From Myxococcus sp. (GTDB lineage: Bacteria > Myxococcota > Myxococcia > Myxococcales > Myxococcaceae): DNA of 64,000 bases. The position numbers and the translations under genes were made by a program. The notes below the pieces were generated by a model, which saw only the letters and a program-made list of their open reading frames with translations, did no database searches and was not told the origin of the DNA. The stretch lies in NCBI GenBank assembly GCA_014879945.1, contig JACSRE010000242.1, positions 62,001 through 126,000 on the forward strand, written 5' to 3'. Below, one piece after another: positions 8,570 through 14,419 of this stretch (position 1 is the stretch's first letter; the number at the start of each line of letters is the position of its first letter).

Positions 8570-9373
8570 TCAGCTCTTCGGGATCCTGGCCTGAATGGCC
8601 TTGAGCGACGCGGCGCCGAGCTCGGTGCTCTGGTACCCGTTGGCCGCGATCTGCGCGTTGATCTTCTCGATGCGCTCGCTGTTGGCCGGGTGGGTCGAGA
8701 GGAACGTCAGGAACGCCGGCGCCTCACCCTGCGCCTGGAGCTTCTGGAAGAAGCTGGCGAGGCCCTGCGGCGCGTAGCCGGTCGCGTTCGCGTACTTCGC
8801 GCCGTACCGGTCGGCCTCGAGCTCCATGTCGCGGCCGTACGCCATGATGGTGCCCTTGCCCACCAGCGCCGCCGCGAGGAGCGCCACGTCTGCCGGATCT
8901 TTGCCCAGCGCCATCGCGCTCACCGTCTCGAGCCCCTTGGCGGCGACCAGCTGCCGCGCCGAGTGCCGCGCCACCACGTGGCCCAGCTCGTGGCCCAGCA
9001 CGCCCACCACCTCGGCCTCGTTCTCGGCGGCCAGCAGCAGGCCCGTGTAGACGTAGATGCGCCCCCCGGGCGTCGCGAAGGCGTTCACCGTCTTGGGGTC
9101 GTCGATCACGAAGTACTGCCACTTCACCCCGCCGCGGTCCTGCTCGGCCTGGGGCGTCAGCTTGTTCACCAGGCCGCCCACGTAGAAGCCCACGTCGGGG
9201 TTGTTGAGGAACTTCGTGTTCTCCTTCTTCAGCTCCTCGTGCACCTGAAAGCCGAGCTCGGTCTCCTGCGCGTCCGAGATCAGCGAGGCAGCCACGAGCT
9301 GCTCGGTCTGCGAGCGCTGCATCATGGTGCACGACGAGAGAACGGCGACGACGGCGAGCAGCGTAGAACGCAT
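8570..9373 (-). CDS. M48 family metallopeptidase lipoprotein
   Basis: This 267-aa zinc peptidase has a lipoprotein signal (hydrophobic stretch, then LSSC with Cys15), so it is probably anchored in the envelope. The zinc motif is HELGH (H128, E129, H132), and the third ligand lies in MELEADRYG downstream, the standard M48 arrangement. The segment NAFATPGGRIYVYTGLL is also typical of BepA/LoiP-type periplasmic M48 enzymes that act in outer-membrane protein quality control. The start at 9373 follows GGAGGGG. There is no TPR domain as in BepA, so it is closer to the short LoiP/YcaL form. The substrate is not indicated. Confidence 0.92.
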   Translation of the reverse strand: MRSTLLAVVAVLSSCTMMQRSQTEQLVAASLISDAQETELGFQVHEELKKENTKFLNNPDVGFYVGGLVNKLTPQAEQDRGGVKWQYFVIDDPKTVNAFATPGGRIYVYTGLLLAAENEAEVVGVLGHELGHVVARHSARQLVAAKGLETVSAMALGKDPADVALLAAALVGKGTIMAYGRDMELEADRYGAKYANATGYAPQGLASFFQKLQAQGEAPAFLTFLSTHPANSERIEKINAQIAANGYQSTELGAASLKAIQARIPKS

Positions 9374-9562
9374 GGGCAACCCCTCCAGTGAAGTCAGTGG
9401 CAGCGGGATTAACCCGCCCCTCGCGCCCGGCGCACCCATTTCAGTGCCACGCAAACGACGCAAGCCTTCAGAACTCGACCCCGTTTTCCGTTTTCAGGGC
9501 CCGCCGTGTCCATGCCTGCGAACCCGGACACACCGGGCACACACTGACAGGGAGAGACACCA

Positions 9563-10513
9563 ATGAAGCGACTGATGATGGCGGCAGCGGTGGTGGCGGG
9601 GTTGTCGATGCTGGGCTGCGGCGTGGACAAGGGCGAGCCGTTTCGAGAGGGCTTTCCGCAGCAAGAGACGGTGAAGCTCAACCTGCCCGAGAACAAGACG
9701 GCGCTCACCGGCGAGGGGCAGCGGCGCGACGGGCTCGAGGGGCAGATCGCCGAGTTCTACAAGCTGACGCGCGGGGTGACGACGCAGGTCAACGGCGCGG
9801 GCGCCGCCGTGCTGACGCTGGTGCAGAAGATCGCCGAGCACCGGCCGACCAGCGTGACGCAGAACGTGGCGGTCTGGGGCCCCCACACCGATGCGCTCTC
9901 GCCGAACACCTTCAAGTTCACCGTCACCATGACGGCGCAGAACGAGTTCACCTACCTCCTCGAGGCCAAGGGCAAGACCGAAGCCGACTCGAGGTACCGC
10001 GCCATCCTCTCTGGGTCGCACGTCTCGACCGGCCACAAGCTGGGCAGCGGCACCTTCCTCATCGACTTCGACAAGGCGAAAGAGCTGCCTGAGAACGACG
10101 GCAACGTCGGCGCCGCCACCTACGTGTACTCGAAGCTCACCGCGACGGCCGACGTGGCGATCGACGCCACCTTCCAGCGGGTGCGTGACGGCGAGACCGG
10201 CGGCCTGGTCGACGTGAACTACGGCTACCGCGAGCAGCCGGGCAACGGCGGCGAGTTCAAGTTCCGCATGAACAAGAACTGGGTCTCGGGCCCGGGCATC
10301 GAGGTGCTCACCGTCAAGAGCCGGTGGCAGCAGTCGGGCGCTGGCCGCAGCGACGCCCGCGCGACGGGCGGCGATCTGCCCGGCGTCGCCACCGCCTCGG
10401 AGTGCTGGGACTCGGGCTTCGCGTCGCGCTACCTCAACGCTTCGTTCGACCCCGGCCTCAACTACGGCCAGGAGTCGAGCTGCGCGTTCCCCACGGCCGA
10501 GTACGCGCCGTAA
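9563..10513 (+). CDS. Lipoprotein of unknown function, first of a paralogous pair
   Basis: I do not recognise this 316-aa protein. It begins with a lipoprotein signal (MLGC, Cys19) and contains no known domain. It shares a pattern with the lipoprotein at 13475-14419: TR followed by VNG/FNG, a hydrophobic helix-like stretch, PTS, WGP, and a final part with CW, GQES and a last Cys. The two therefore look like diverged copies flanking the sigma/caspase genes. It is preceded by a GGGAGAG ribosome-binding site and lies 10 bp upstream of the sigma-factor gene, so it is probably the first gene of the operon. The hairpin-like CCCGGACACACCGGG about 30 bp upstream of the start could be an operator, but this is weak. 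Confidence 0.75.
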   Translation: MKRLMMAAAVVAGLSMLGCGVDKGEPFREGFPQQETVKLNLPENKTALTGEGQRRDGLEGQIAEFYKLTRGVTTQVNGAGAAVLTLVQKIAEHRPTSVTQNVAVWGPHTDALSPNTFKFTVTMTAQNEFTYLLEAKGKTEADSRYRAILSGSHVSTGHKLGSGTFLIDFDKAKELPENDGNVGAATYVYSKLTATADVAIDATFQRVRDGETGGLVDVNYGYREQPGNGGEFKFRMNKNWVSGPGIEVLTVKSRWQQSGAGRSDARATGGDLPGVATASECWDSGFASRYLNASFDPGLNYGQESSCAFPTAEYAP

Positions 10514-10523
10514 CATCGACCCC

Positions 10524-11069
10524 ATGAGCCGCCCGGCGTTCGAGGTCATCGAAGGTGGCAGGAGCGCCGGGCGACCGTGGCTGAAGCAGCTGTATTCGAC
10601 GTACGGCGGCGCCGTGTACCAACGGTGCCGCTACCTGCTGAGAGACCCAGCCGCCGCCGAGGACGCCATGCAGGACGTGTTCGCCAGGGCGATGTTGAAC
10701 GAGCCGGGCTTTCGCGGCGAGGCGTCGCCGCTGACGTGGCTGATGAAGATCGCCACCAACCACTGCCTCAACGTGCTGCGAGAGAAGCGCGCCGCCTGGC
10801 ACGATCAGTACGAGTCGATGGAGCGCGTGAGGGGCGAAGCGCACGGCGGCCCCGGCACACTCGAGGCCCGCGATCTGGTGCGCCGGTGCCTGGCGCGGCT
10901 CGACGGCGAGACGCAGGCCGCCGTCATTCACTACTGGGTCGACGATCTGACGCTCGAAGAGGTCGCCGGGCTGTTGGGCCGCTCGGTGCCGACGATTCGA
11001 AAACGACTCAACGCGTTCACCGAGGCGACGGGCCAGGCGATGCGTGAAGGCGACGGAGGTCTCTCGTGA
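10524..11069 (+). CDS. ECF-type RNA polymerase sigma factor
   Basis: The 181-aa protein has the two-domain layout of an extracytoplasmic-function sigma factor. Region 2 is at about residues 25-95, with AAEDAMQDVFARA and LTWLMKIATNHCLN, which contact core polymerase and the -10 element. Region 4 is at about residues 115-170, with LTLEEVAGLLGRSVPTIRKRLN as the -35-binding helix-turn-helix. Its stop overlaps the GTG start of the anti-sigma gene (GTGA), the classical arrangement for co-synthesis. Target promoters cannot be read from the sequence, but autoregulation of this operon is the usual expectation. Confidence 0.93.
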   Translation: MSRPAFEVIEGGRSAGRPWLKQLYSTYGGAVYQRCRYLLRDPAAAEDAMQDVFARAMLNEPGFRGEASPLTWLMKIATNHCLNVLREKRAAWHDQYESMERVRGEAHGGPGTLEARDLVRRCLARLDGETQAAVIHYWVDDLTLEEVAGLLGRSVPTIRKRLNAFTEATGQAMREGDGGLS

Positions 11070-11839
11070 GCGCGACGGCAGTGAAGCACCCGGGCCAGCT
11101 GACCCTTCGCCGGCTGCACGCGGGTGAGGCCGTGGGCGATGAGGTGACGGCGCACGCGCAGCAGTGCGAGGCGTGCCGCGCGGCGCTGGCCTCGTTCGCG
11201 ACCGAGCAGCAGCAGTTCGAGCAGCAGATCTCGTTCGACCGGTTCGCAGCGGGCGTGGAGCGGGCTGCGCGCGAGGCCGCGAAGCCAGGCGCGCCCCGTC
11301 GCCACTGGCCGCAGGTCGTGCTGGCGCTCGCCGCGAGCCTGGGCCTGATCGCCGGCGCGCAGCTGGTGCTCTCCCAAGTCGAACCCGAGGGGTCCTTCAA
11401 CCGGGTCAAGGGCGGCGCGTCGGTCTCGGTGGTGGTCGCCGGCTCGGGCCCGCAGCGCGCGGCCTCGCCAGACGGCGCGGTCGCCGAGGCCCTGGCCGCC
11501 GGCGAGCGGGTGCGCGTCGGCATCGCGCCGGGGCCGTGGAAGTACGCGCTGGTGGTGAGCATCGACGACGCGGGCGAGATCACCCCCATCTACGTCGACA
11601 ACGGCCGCAGCCTCACGATCGGGGCCGGGCAGGAGACCCAGTGGCTCCCCGAGAGCCTGGAGTTCACCGGCAAGGGCCTGGAGCGGGTGGTGGTGCTCCT
11701 CTCGGCCGCGCCCCTCACCCTCGACCAGGTCGCCGCGCCGCTGCGGCTGGCCTTCGACGACGCGCGCGGCGATCTCACGAAGCTCGGCAGTCTCCCGTTG
11801 CCTGGAGAGCAGTTCCACCGCACGTTCCTCAAGCCGTGA
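11066..11839 (+). CDS. Zinc-finger anti-sigma factor with DUF4384-like periplasmic domain
   Basis: This 257-aa protein begins with a zinc-binding anti-sigma domain of the H-x3-C-x2-C form (H30, C34, C37). A single transmembrane helix (about residues 83-104) follows, then a periplasmic domain of about 140 residues. That domain has the pattern VRVGIAPGPWKYALVVSID, then GEITPIYVDNG and the stretch GLERVVVLLS, which I recognise as similar to DUF4384 modules often linked to caspase-like proteins. The N-terminus should bind the ECF sigma factor in the cytoplasm while the C-terminus senses an envelope signal. It starts with GTG inside the sigma-factor stop and ends in a GTGA overlap with the caspase gene. 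Confidence 0.85.
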   Translation: MSATAVKHPGQLTLRRLHAGEAVGDEVTAHAQQCEACRAALASFATEQQQFEQQISFDRFAAGVERAAREAAKPGAPRRHWPQVVLALAASLGLIAGAQLVLSQVEPEGSFNRVKGGASVSVVVAGSGPQRAASPDGAVAEALAAGERVRVGIAPGPWKYALVVSIDDAGEITPIYVDNGRSLTIGAGQETQWLPESLEFTGKGLERVVVLLSAAPLTLDQVAAPLRLAFDDARGDLTKLGSLPLPGEQFHRTFLKP

Positions 11840-13470
11840 CCTCTTCCCTGCCACCGTCGCCGATCGCGCGTCAGCTGCTGCTGGCGTGCCTGGTCGCGTC
11901 GAGCGCGGGAGCCCAGGAAGCCCCGACCGGGCCGCTGCGCCGGTTCGCCCTCTTCGTCGGCAACAACGAAGGCGGCGAGGGCACCCGGCCGCTCCTCTAC
12001 GCCGCCGACGACGCCAGGCGCATGCACGAGGTGATGGTGCGGCTCGGCGGCACCGCGCCGGCCGACGCGCTGCTGCTGCTCAACGACTCCGCGGACGACG
12101 TGCTGACCGCGCTGTCCGAGCTCGAGCGCCGCGCCCGCGACGCCCGCGCGCGCGGCGATCGCACCTCGCTGTTCTTCTACTACTCGGGGCACGCCAAAGA
12201 GGGCGCGCTCCGGCTGGGCGTGACGAAGCTGCCCATGGAGTCGGTGAAGGCGCGCCTGGCGCAGGGGCCCACCGACATGCGCGTGGCGGTGTTCGACGCC
12301 TGCCGCTCGGGCGCGCTCACCCGCACCAAGGGCGTGCGGAAGGCGCCGGCGTTCGAGGTCGAGACCGACGCCACCCGCGCCGCGAAGGGCCTGGTGATCC
12401 TCACCTCGAGCGCGTCCGACGAAGACTCTCAGGAGTCTGACGCGATCGGCGCGAGCTACTTCTCGTACCACCTGGCCAGCGGGCTGTTGGGCAGCGCCGA
12501 TCAGAGCGGCGACGGCCGGGTGAGCCTCGCCGAGGCGTACGCCTACGCCTACGAGCGCACGGTGGCCTCGACGGCCGACAGCGCCGCGGGCGCGCAGCAC
12601 CCCACCTTCAGCTTCGATCTCGCGGGCAACGGCGACCTGATGCTGACCGACGTGGCGCAGCGCAACGAGGGCCTCCGCATTCCGGCGAGCGCGCCGCCCG
12701 GCACCTACTTCCTCATCGACAAGCGGGGCGTGGTGGTCGCGGAGCTGGTCAAGAGCGAGGCCGAGCGCATGATCGCGCTCCCGGCGGGTGCGTACACCGT
12801 CAAGCGCCGCCTCACCGATCGGCTCCGGGTCGGCGAGGTGAACGTCAGCGACGGGCAGATCACCACCCTCGACGAGGGCGCCTTGCGGAACGCGAAGTTC
12901 TCTGACGACCCGGTGAAGGGCACCGGCCTGACGACGGTGTACTCGCGCCACTGGAGCATCTCGGCGACCGGGCAGTACCAGGCGATCTTCGACGCGCCGA
13001 CGAACGCGGGCGGGCTGTTCCCCTCGGCGCCGATGGTGGGCGGCGAGGCCACCGTGCACAACTTCTTCGGCCGCGGCTTCGCCTGGAGCTTCGACGGCCA
13101 GTACGGCTGGTCGGCGGGCGTGGTGAACAGCGCGCGCCTGGGCACGCCGGCCGGCTATCGCTACTCGCTCGTCACCGTGGGCAGCTCGCTCTTCTACGAG
13201 TGGAACGAAGAGGGCACGTGGGTGCCCTTCCTCGGCGCGCGCCTGGGCTTGAGCCTGATGAACCGCGAGTTCGAGGAGCCGCTCTTCCCGCGCCAGAGCT
13301 TCACCACCATGAGCCCGGGCGTGGTGGCCGGCCTCAAGTACCGCCTGGGCCGGAGCTTCGGGCTCGTGGCCCGCGGCCGCGTGCACTACCTGCTCTACAA
13401 CGTCGACGAGACCCGCAGCCTGGGCTTCGCCGAGGTGGGGCTGCTGCTCAACTACGAGTTCCGGGACTGA
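11836..13470 (+). CDS. Secreted caspase-like (C14) peptidase with beta-rich C-terminal domain
   Basis: The 544-aa protein starts at a GTG overlapping the anti-sigma stop. It has a Sec signal peptide (about residues 1-26, cleavage near AGA/QEA). A caspase/metacaspase-like domain follows (about residues 35-260), with catalytic His119 in YYSGH and Cys156 in VFDACRSG. An EF-hand-like acidic loop, DQSGDGRVSLAEA, lies near residue 222. A middle domain (about 275-350) contains DKRGVVV and PAGAYTVKRR and resembles carrier or PEGA-type beta modules. Residues 365-544 consist of alternating aromatic/hydrophobic strands ending NYEFRD, which suggests an outer-membrane beta-barrel or beta-sandwich. A caspase fold joined to a possible barrel, encoded with a sigma/anti-sigma pair, is unusual. 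Confidence 0.85.
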   Translation: MTSSLPPSPIARQLLLACLVASSAGAQEAPTGPLRRFALFVGNNEGGEGTRPLLYAADDARRMHEVMVRLGGTAPADALLLLNDSADDVLTALSELERRARDARARGDRTSLFFYYSGHAKEGALRLGVTKLPMESVKARLAQGPTDMRVAVFDACRSGALTRTKGVRKAPAFEVETDATRAAKGLVILTSSASDEDSQESDAIGASYFSYHLASGLLGSADQSGDGRVSLAEAYAYAYERTVASTADSAAGAQHPTFSFDLAGNGDLMLTDVAQRNEGLRIPASAPPGTYFLIDKRGVVVAELVKSEAERMIALPAGAYTVKRRLTDRLRVGEVNVSDGQITTLDEGALRNAKFSDDPVKGTGLTTVYSRHWSISATGQYQAIFDAPTNAGGLFPSAPMVGGEATVHNFFGRGFAWSFDGQYGWSAGVVNSARLGTPAGYRYSLVTVGSSLFYEWNEEGTWVPFLGARLGLSLMNREFEEPLFPRQSFTTMSPGVVAGLKYRLGRSFGLVARGRVHYLLYNVDETRSLGFAEVGLLLNYEFRD

Positions 13471-13474
13471 CGCC

Positions 13475-14419
13475 ATGAGACACCTTCTCCTCCTCCTCTG
13501 CGTGCTGGACGTCACCGCGTGCGGCGGCTCCTGGTCGAACCGCGATCTCGAGTTCGTCGCGGCGCTGCCGTCGCGCGCAGCCCTGGCCTCGAACCTCCCC
13601 ACCTCGGGCAGCAGCGCCCAGCCGCTGTCGTCTCGTCGAGATGGGCTCAACGCCGGAGAGCCCTCGCAGGCGTACGCCGACACCAGGAAGGCGAACGCCG
13701 ACTTCAACGGGCTCCTCGACTTCTTCCTCGGGGTGCTCGACTCGGTGCGCGCGGTGCCGCCCACCAGCCGCTCGGGAGAGTCGCGCACCTGGGGCCCGTT
13801 CGTCGCGAAGGACAACCCGGGCTTCGAGTTTCAGCTGATCATCGCCCTCGTCAGCACCGACCCGCGTGACACCTACGCGTGGAAGCTCCAGGCCCGGCGG
13901 CTCGGCACGCCCACCTTCTTCGACGTGGTGAAGGGGGCCTTCCAGGCCTCGGCCGAGACGGTGCGCAAGGGCATGGGGCAGATCGAGGTGCCGGTGAAGG
14001 ACTTCCGCGACCAGCTGCAGGTGGACAGCACCTTCAAGGGCATCGACTCGATCAGCCTGGGCTACTTCACCGCCGGCTTCCCGACGACCTCGACGCTGGC
14101 GTTCACCTTCACCCCCGGCAACACGAGCGGGTTCTCGTCGCTCGGGTACGCCGCCAGGCGCGCCGAAGACGGCTCCGGCGCGATGGGGTTCTCGCTGAAG
14201 TCGGCCGACGCGAACATCAGCCGGCTCGATCTGGTGAGCAAGTGGCGCGCGGACGGCGCGGGGGTGACGGTCTCGACGGTGGGCGAAGGCAACTACCGAG
14301 GGGCGACGCGCGTAGAGTGCTGGAACACGGCCTTCAAGGTGACGTACTTCAAGGAGAGCTGGCCCGGCGGCCAGGAGTCGGGCGCTCAGGCCGACTGCGT
14401 GTCGGTCGAAGGGCTGTGA
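13475..14419 (+). CDS. Lipoprotein of unknown function, second of a paralogous pair
   Basis: This is a 314-aa lipoprotein (VTAC, Cys16) without a known domain. It starts five bases after the caspase gene and should belong to the same operon. Its central region (TR, FNG, a hydrophobic stretch, PTS, TWGP, FEFQL) and its end (VECW, GGQES, final Cys) match the pattern of the lipoprotein at 9563-10513, although overall identity is low. The shared cysteines suggest a common disulphide-stabilised fold. Its last 34 bases overlap the end of the convergent PAP2 gene. Function is unknown. The position suggests that it works with the caspase protein in the envelope. Confidence 0.75.
   Translation: MRHLLLLLCVLDVTACGGSWSNRDLEFVAALPSRAALASNLPTSGSSAQPLSSRRDGLNAGEPSQAYADTRKANADFNGLLDFFLGVLDSVRAVPPTSRSGESRTWGPFVAKDNPGFEFQLIIALVSTDPRDTYAWKLQARRLGTPTFFDVVKGAFQASAETVRKGMGQIEVPVKDFRDQLQVDSTFKGIDSISLGYFTAGFPTTSTLAFTFTPGNTSGFSSLGYAARRAEDGSGAMGFSLKSADANISRLDLVSKWRADGAGVTVSTVGEGNYRGATRVECWNTAFKVTYFKESWPGGQESGAQADCVSVEGL

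Follow-up and report, generated by a model that had tools for sequence, protein, structure and literature searches.

A conserved myxobacterial operon setting an ECF sigma factor, a membrane anti-sigma factor and a caspase-like protease between two lipoproteins: a candidate envelope signalling relay

The window analysed here, a 64,000-nucleotide stretch of a Myxococcus sp. contig, contains five tightly packed genes at 9563-14419, all on the + strand. They encode a lipoprotein (lip1, 9563..10513, 316 aa), an ECF sigma factor (10524..11069, 181 aa), a membrane anti-sigma factor (11066..11839, 257 aa, GTG start), a caspase-like protease with a predicted C-terminal outer-membrane barrel (11836..13470, 544 aa, GTG start) and a second lipoprotein (lip2, 13475..14419, 314 aa). 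Successive genes are separated by 10 bp, joined by two 4-bp GTGA overlaps and separated again by 4 bp. The initial annotation of this DNA had described the same five co-directional genes and both overlaps; its first gap of 10 bp was right, and its second, given as 5 bp, is 4 bp.

In profile searches, the sigma factor scored 72.9 bits against TIGR02937 (sigma70-ECF; cut-off 42.9, E = 2.3e-20), and its regions 2 (Sigma70_r2, PF04542) and 4 (Sigma70_r4_2, PF08281) both exceeded curated cut-offs, placing it among the ECF sigma factors. The anti-sigma factor has the layout of the ZAS family, with an HxxxCxxC zinc motif (H30-C37, 11153..11176, +) ahead of a single transmembrane helix (residues ~82-103) and a periplasmic DUF4384-like domain. 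C34 and C37 are present in 32/32 orthologues and H30 in 31/32. No Pfam model matched the window protein itself, DUF4384 (PF14326) included at E up to 0.1; zf-HC2 and DUF4384 were each matched by 20/32 orthologues, the latter with a best E of 7.7e-6. The 4-bp overlap of the two genes and their conserved pairing suggest that this protein binds and inhibits the adjacent sigma factor. The genome also encodes M50 site-2-type proteases.

The fourth gene product belongs to the Peptidase C14/orthocaspase group on the basis of its caspase domain (PF00656, 44.9 bits versus a cut-off of 21.4, E = 1.5e-11) and its His-Cys dyad. Counted from the GTG start at 11836, the catalytic residues are His119 (12190..12192, +) and Cys156 (12301..12303, +), as first annotated; both are present in 44/44 orthologues, in which Asp154 is also invariant. 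The predicted structure (pLDDT 83, pTM 0.66) combines a caspase domain with a middle domain of beta structure and eight C-terminal strands. Its N-terminal part matches caspase-7 (Foldseek, 1.3e-4, TMt 0.64), and the strands at residues 372-542 (12949..13461, +) form in the model an 8-stranded antiparallel barrel of the OmpA/NspA fold, matching OmpA (E = 1e-9) and NspA (2.6e-8, TMt 0.79). Support at the sequence level comes from an NspA match of 6e-4 and, in an orthologue, from OMP_b-brl (1.3e-6). The beta-rich C-terminus noted at the outset, and read there as a caspase-barrel fusion, is thus an 8-stranded barrel in the model. An even-stranded barrel puts both of its ends in the periplasm, so the protease should face the periplasm. 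The caspase should accordingly be anchored in the outer membrane by its modelled barrel, with its protease part in the periplasm, rather than secreted as the initial annotation had it. An acidic, EF-hand-like loop (D222-E233, 12499..12534, +), with D222, D226 and E233 conserved in 44/44 orthologues, may bind calcium; an EF-hand profile matched weakly in one orthologue. Orthocaspases and prokaryotic caspases cut after basic residues, according to the accessible part of one source (PMC6426788).

Both flanking proteins carry a lipobox (SMLGC in lip1 and DVTAC in lip2) whose cysteine is invariant in either family, identifying them as lipoproteins. C281, W282 and C307 of lip1 are also invariant. 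In a FastTree phylogeny, a single branch (support 99) separates the 54 lipoproteins encoded upstream from the 67 encoded downstream. The two are therefore ancient paralogues, each fixed at its own end of the operon, and the proposal that paralogous lipoproteins bracket the unit holds, with sister clades fully separated by operon position. Comparisons of lip1 and lip2 with Pfam gave chance-level matches only, and the lip1 model, although well predicted (pLDDT 88.5, pTM 0.82), found no match in the PDB at E ≤ 0.001 in a fold search. The lipoproteins probably watch over the caspase at the outer membrane, a role that is our guess. A K-G dipeptide considered as a candidate shared feature of the lipoproteins (K23-G24 in the window lip1) is not conserved. 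Solo lip1-type genes without a caspase occur at L089, L093, L107, L126 and L147; those of L089 and L093, which come from small genomes, adjoin a different sigma factor gene.

The five genes are one real conserved unit. Among 83 DNA stretches taken around lipoprotein matches, the five-gene order is kept in 46/56 orthologous loci with complete coverage (55 loci in all), with median gaps along the order lip-sigma-anti-sigma-caspase-lip of 25, -4, 14 and 10 bp. Homologues of lip2 are present in 101/144 related genomes, and named carriers of the unit include Archangium, Corallococcus, Myxococcus, Pyxidicoccus, Hyalangium, Citreicoccus and Anaeromyxobacter. The genes that flank the operon (an M48 peptidase and PAP2) are rare to absent outside the genus, whereas the five genes persist there, which points to selection on the unit and not to recent shared descent of the segment. 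The genes thus stay together while their neighbours change, and homologues of the caspase and lipoproteins are not regularly found apart, as the idea of a single unit predicted. Exceptions to the order are some loci without lip1 and one (L085) without the sigma/anti-sigma pair. In this genus the operon adjoins a divergent M48-type metallopeptidase lipoprotein gene (8570-9463, -), and at some loci missing lip1 or the sigma pair (L103, L085) an M48-type gene is the immediate neighbour of those that remain.

The core of sigma factor, anti-sigma factor and caspase also occurs outside this unit, and the genome holds several paralogous triads. It has eight caspase matches; apart from that of the window operon, five adjoin sigma and anti-sigma genes and one is 5 kb from its sigma pair. 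The lipoprotein-operon caspases cluster together, separately from these paralogues (SH-aLRT 91), and the lipoprotein pair is the sole feature special to this orthologous group of triads. Several paralogous caspases end in a C-terminal beta-rich region and others in transmembrane helices. Among the triads of the genus (L148-L162), most caspases have C-terminal beta-rich regions, with transmembrane helices in L149 and L158; orphan caspases of ~420 aa in L152, L160 and L161 have no K-G in linker or tether. A further triad, with R-A-K-G in both partners, lies on a Spirochaetales-labelled metagenome contig (L241:8053-11253).

A predicted ECF-type promoter, TTTCCGTTT-N12-GTGTCCAT (9485..9513, +), lies 50 bp before lip1 and is conserved upstream of lip1. 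Its consensus, TTTCYGTTT-N12-GTGTC, is present exactly in 44/56 Myxococcaceae-type upstream regions and within one mismatch in 51/56, compared with 0 in shuffles. Across 76 genomes of the family, the T form of the motif has 52 exact sites versus 1 for the reversed pattern. By our count the operon accounts for 35 of these 52 sites, so that genome-wide the motif is almost exclusive to it. The majority of the remaining sites (L308-L321 and L352-L356) precede genes for exported proteins or lipoproteins by 20-70 bp, with pectinacetylesterase-like lipoproteins and a PSCyt-type (DUF1588) exported protein recurring among them, and could represent a small regulon. In the genome analysed here, two one-mismatch sites (C116:63331-63356 and C192:14652-14677) likewise precede genes of this kind. 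Anaeromyxobacter-side loci do not share the Myxococcaceae consensus, with 3-6 mismatches in most. We expect the sigma factor of the unit to drive the operon promoter, in line with the initial suggestion that this factor drives the genes of the unit.

The anti-sigma factor and the caspase share a conserved motif ending in K-G. In the anti-sigma factor, R113-V-K115-G116 (11402..11413, +) lies in the stalk ~10 residues outside the transmembrane helix and is a putative site-1 cleavage site (K|G). The stalk is otherwise variable, and at this motif R is found in 32/32 orthologues, K in 32/32 and G in 31/32. In the caspase, R163-T-K165-G166 (12322..12333, +), a putative autoprocessing site, lies in the p20/p10 linker just after the catalytic Cys, with R, K and G each conserved in 44/44 orthologues and with linker residues 158-181 disordered in the model (pLDDT <50). 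A second caspase site, K361-G362 (12916..12921, +), lies in the tether that links the barrel to the caspase half and could serve for self-release; both residues are conserved in 44/44 orthologues beside a variable, gappy tether, with pLDDT <50 at 364-368. Conservation extends to the paralogous triads, as scored on 180 caspase/anti-sigma pairs (effective n about 59). No anti-sigma columns are more conserved than G116 (98%) and K115 (90%), compared with 80% for the zinc Cys (weighted values), and in the caspases G166 (100%) and K165 (90%) come near the catalytic H and C (100%). The presence of K or R at the putative sites in most lineages is consistent with cleavage after Arg or Lys.

The two partners also covary in part. 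Where a lineage has R-G in its caspase, the stalk has R-G too, as does the tether in the L007 lineage. K/R type agrees between partners in 13/14 caspase clusters with K or R in both (permutation p = 0.034), a score taken on the first [KR]G in the stalk, which miscalls some rows, and in which only two lineages are of R type. Chance alone would place a [KR]G dipeptide in many stalks (7/15 expected in shuffles), so the argument rests on the fixed, conserved aligned position and not on presence alone. Other zf-HC2 anti-sigma factors in the genus have [KR]G in 2/10 cases, one of them in an R-type caspase triad. Where no caspase is encoded in the surrounding DNA (14-19 kb; 8 kb for L538), the K of the anti-sigma motif is lost in 3/5 lineages, in one of them partly: four related genomes (L539-L542) have no K-G, the sister genomes L536 and L537 have Q-G or R-G, and L538 has T-G. 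Relatives of these anti-sigma factors that do have a caspase retain K-G. Several loci count against a cleavage model, namely L534 and L535, which keep K-G without a caspase; L455, L458, L460 and L463, from one lineage, with K-G in the caspase and M-G or R-G in the stalk; L172, with K-S; and L154, whose caspase has no K-G even though its anti-sigma factor does. Overall, the matching motifs suggest that the caspase frees itself and cuts the anti-sigma factor.

On balance we favour a reading of the operon as an envelope-to-nucleoid signalling system, in which the caspase would act as the site-1 protease that releases the sigma factor after cutting itself from the outer membrane. In this scheme, the anti-sigma factor would retain the ECF sigma factor at the inner membrane. 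The caspase would meanwhile sit as a periplasmic zymogen that its barrel fixes to the outer membrane, until activated by an envelope signal such as, perhaps, an influx of calcium or some change affecting the lipoproteins. Once active, it would cut its p20/p10 linker at R-x-K|G and its barrel tether at K|G. The tether cut would let the protease leave the outer membrane, which answers the main objection on physical grounds, namely that an outer-membrane protease can hardly reach a site beside the inner membrane. The freed caspase would then cleave the R-x-K|G motif of the anti-sigma factor, close to the periplasmic face of the inner membrane. After a site-2 protease had finished release, the sigma factor would turn on its own operon from TTTCYGTTT-N12-GTGTCCAT, together with a few exported-protein genes in some genomes. 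We infer these cleavages and their order from the motifs; most simply, a single kind of K|G cleavage site would serve three purposes, namely caspase maturation, release from the outer membrane and the anti-sigma cut. The broader proposal, that a self-freed caspase relays a signal through the periplasm by cutting the anti-sigma factor at the same K|G (or R|G) motif throughout a triad family whose K/R types change together, spanning Myxococcota and at least one spirochaete-labelled genome, is more tentative, and we would not be surprised to see it fail.

The strongest rival makes the caspase an effector only. Ordinary site-1 and site-2 proteases would free the sigma factor, which would then drive a caspase and lipoproteins that remodel or degrade envelope proteins, much as first annotated, with sigma release leading to protease production. 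The promoter before lip1 and the packed genes do make the caspase and lipoproteins expected products of the sigma factor, and that half of the earlier idea stands; the shared R-x-K-G and K-G motifs suggest that the caspase also acts upstream and is not only a product. The existence of caspase-less sigma/anti-sigma pairs means that caspase-free release is possible. This account leaves unexplained why the motif of the caspase linker and tether is the most conserved element of the anti-sigma factor, why K/R type tracks between partners and why the motif is lost in three of the five caspase-less lineages; nor need products of a sigma factor accompany the anti-sigma factor in every paralogous triad. 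We regard it as unlikely, if still a serious contender.

A different use of the same residues is that the stalk R-x-K-G is a docking or inhibitory pseudo-substrate through which the anti-sigma factor keeps the protease inactive. Binding would fit the sequence data as well as cutting does, but the same motif occurs in flexible caspase linkers, where cutting is its usual meaning, and docking needs no K-G in the barrel tether, which makes this reading improbable. It is very improbable that K-G merely marks the structural start of the DUF4384 fold, unrelated to the caspase. The dipeptide does lie ~24 residues before the Pfam DUF4384 start in nearly all anti-sigma factors, but two DUF4384 proteins of another type, not anti-sigma factors, have no K-G (L475, L484), three of the five caspase-less lineages lost the motif and kept the domain, and the identical caspase motif would have to be a coincidence. 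That the lipoproteins and caspase are an ordinary neighbourhood with no common function, as loci without lip1 or the sigma pair and solo lip1 homologues might suggest, is scarcely credible when the five-gene order persists over several families as neighbours change and the caspases with lipoproteins form one clade.

The favoured relay would work like DegS-RseA-RpoE, in which a periplasmic protease cuts a membrane anti-sigma factor and site-2 cleavage follows. Given the conserved putative site-1 motif and the M50 proteases, the unit is a candidate for RseA-type regulated intramembrane proteolysis. DegS is an inner-membrane serine protease, whereas here a caspase-fold cysteine protease is fused to a predicted outer-membrane barrel. 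Operons of sigma-70 factors and metacaspases have been predicted in M. xanthus (4/5 metacaspases), Anaeromyxobacter, Haliangium, Sorangium, Ralstonia and Fibrobacter (Asplund-Samuelsson et al. 2012, PMC3501461). As in this unit, the predicted operons in the accessible part of that source combine a sigma gene with one for a caspase homologue; the same part describes no anti-sigma factor, barrel, lipoproteins, promoter, shared cleavage-like motifs or mechanism. In Craspase/DiCASP (type III-E CRISPR Csx29-Csx30-CASP-sigma), an inhibitor of an ECF-type sigma factor is cleaved by a protease of the caspase family, and the sigma factor is presumed to be set free and to act at its own locus (PMC10028731). 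Cleavage of the inhibitor there illustrates how a protease of this family is able to control a sigma factor of ECF type, but that system is cytosolic and RNA-activated and uses a TPR-CHAT protease, whereas here the caspase has a signal peptide and barrel and the anti-sigma factor is membrane-bound. None of the five genes is a type III-E CRISPR gene (TPR-CHAT, Csx30 or Cas7-11), which sets the unit outside that class. Sigma factors of the ECF54 group, for which control by neighbouring CHAT or other proteases has been predicted (PMC8999054), resemble this one in being encoded with caspase-family protease domains but have no anti-sigma factor, whereas the sigma factor of this unit has a membrane-bound one.

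We found no open-access literature joining metacaspases and anti-sigma cleavage. The initial annotation had held that caspases near sigma factors are known and that a fusion bracketed by lipoproteins is unfamiliar; such operons have in outline been known since 2012, at least from the accessible part of PMC3501461, and the lipoprotein-bracketed form was not found in the literature. As far as could be checked, what is new here is that five-gene form, together with the tether to the barrel, the nearly private promoter and the motifs that match between protease and anti-sigma factor. Few functions have been established for secreted bacterial caspases. If the relay holds true, a large caspase family would gain a defined substrate, the neighbouring anti-sigma factor, with a predicted cut site; an outer-membrane protein would have a route for signalling to the inner membrane; and caspase-type proteolysis would be tied to transcription control in multicellular, predatory bacteria.

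We note that the operon is decaying in three genomes (G039, G057 and G074; L303-L305) of the genus of G045, in which lip1-sigma is a short fused remnant, the anti-sigma gene is intact, the caspase is truncated and the promoter is retained.
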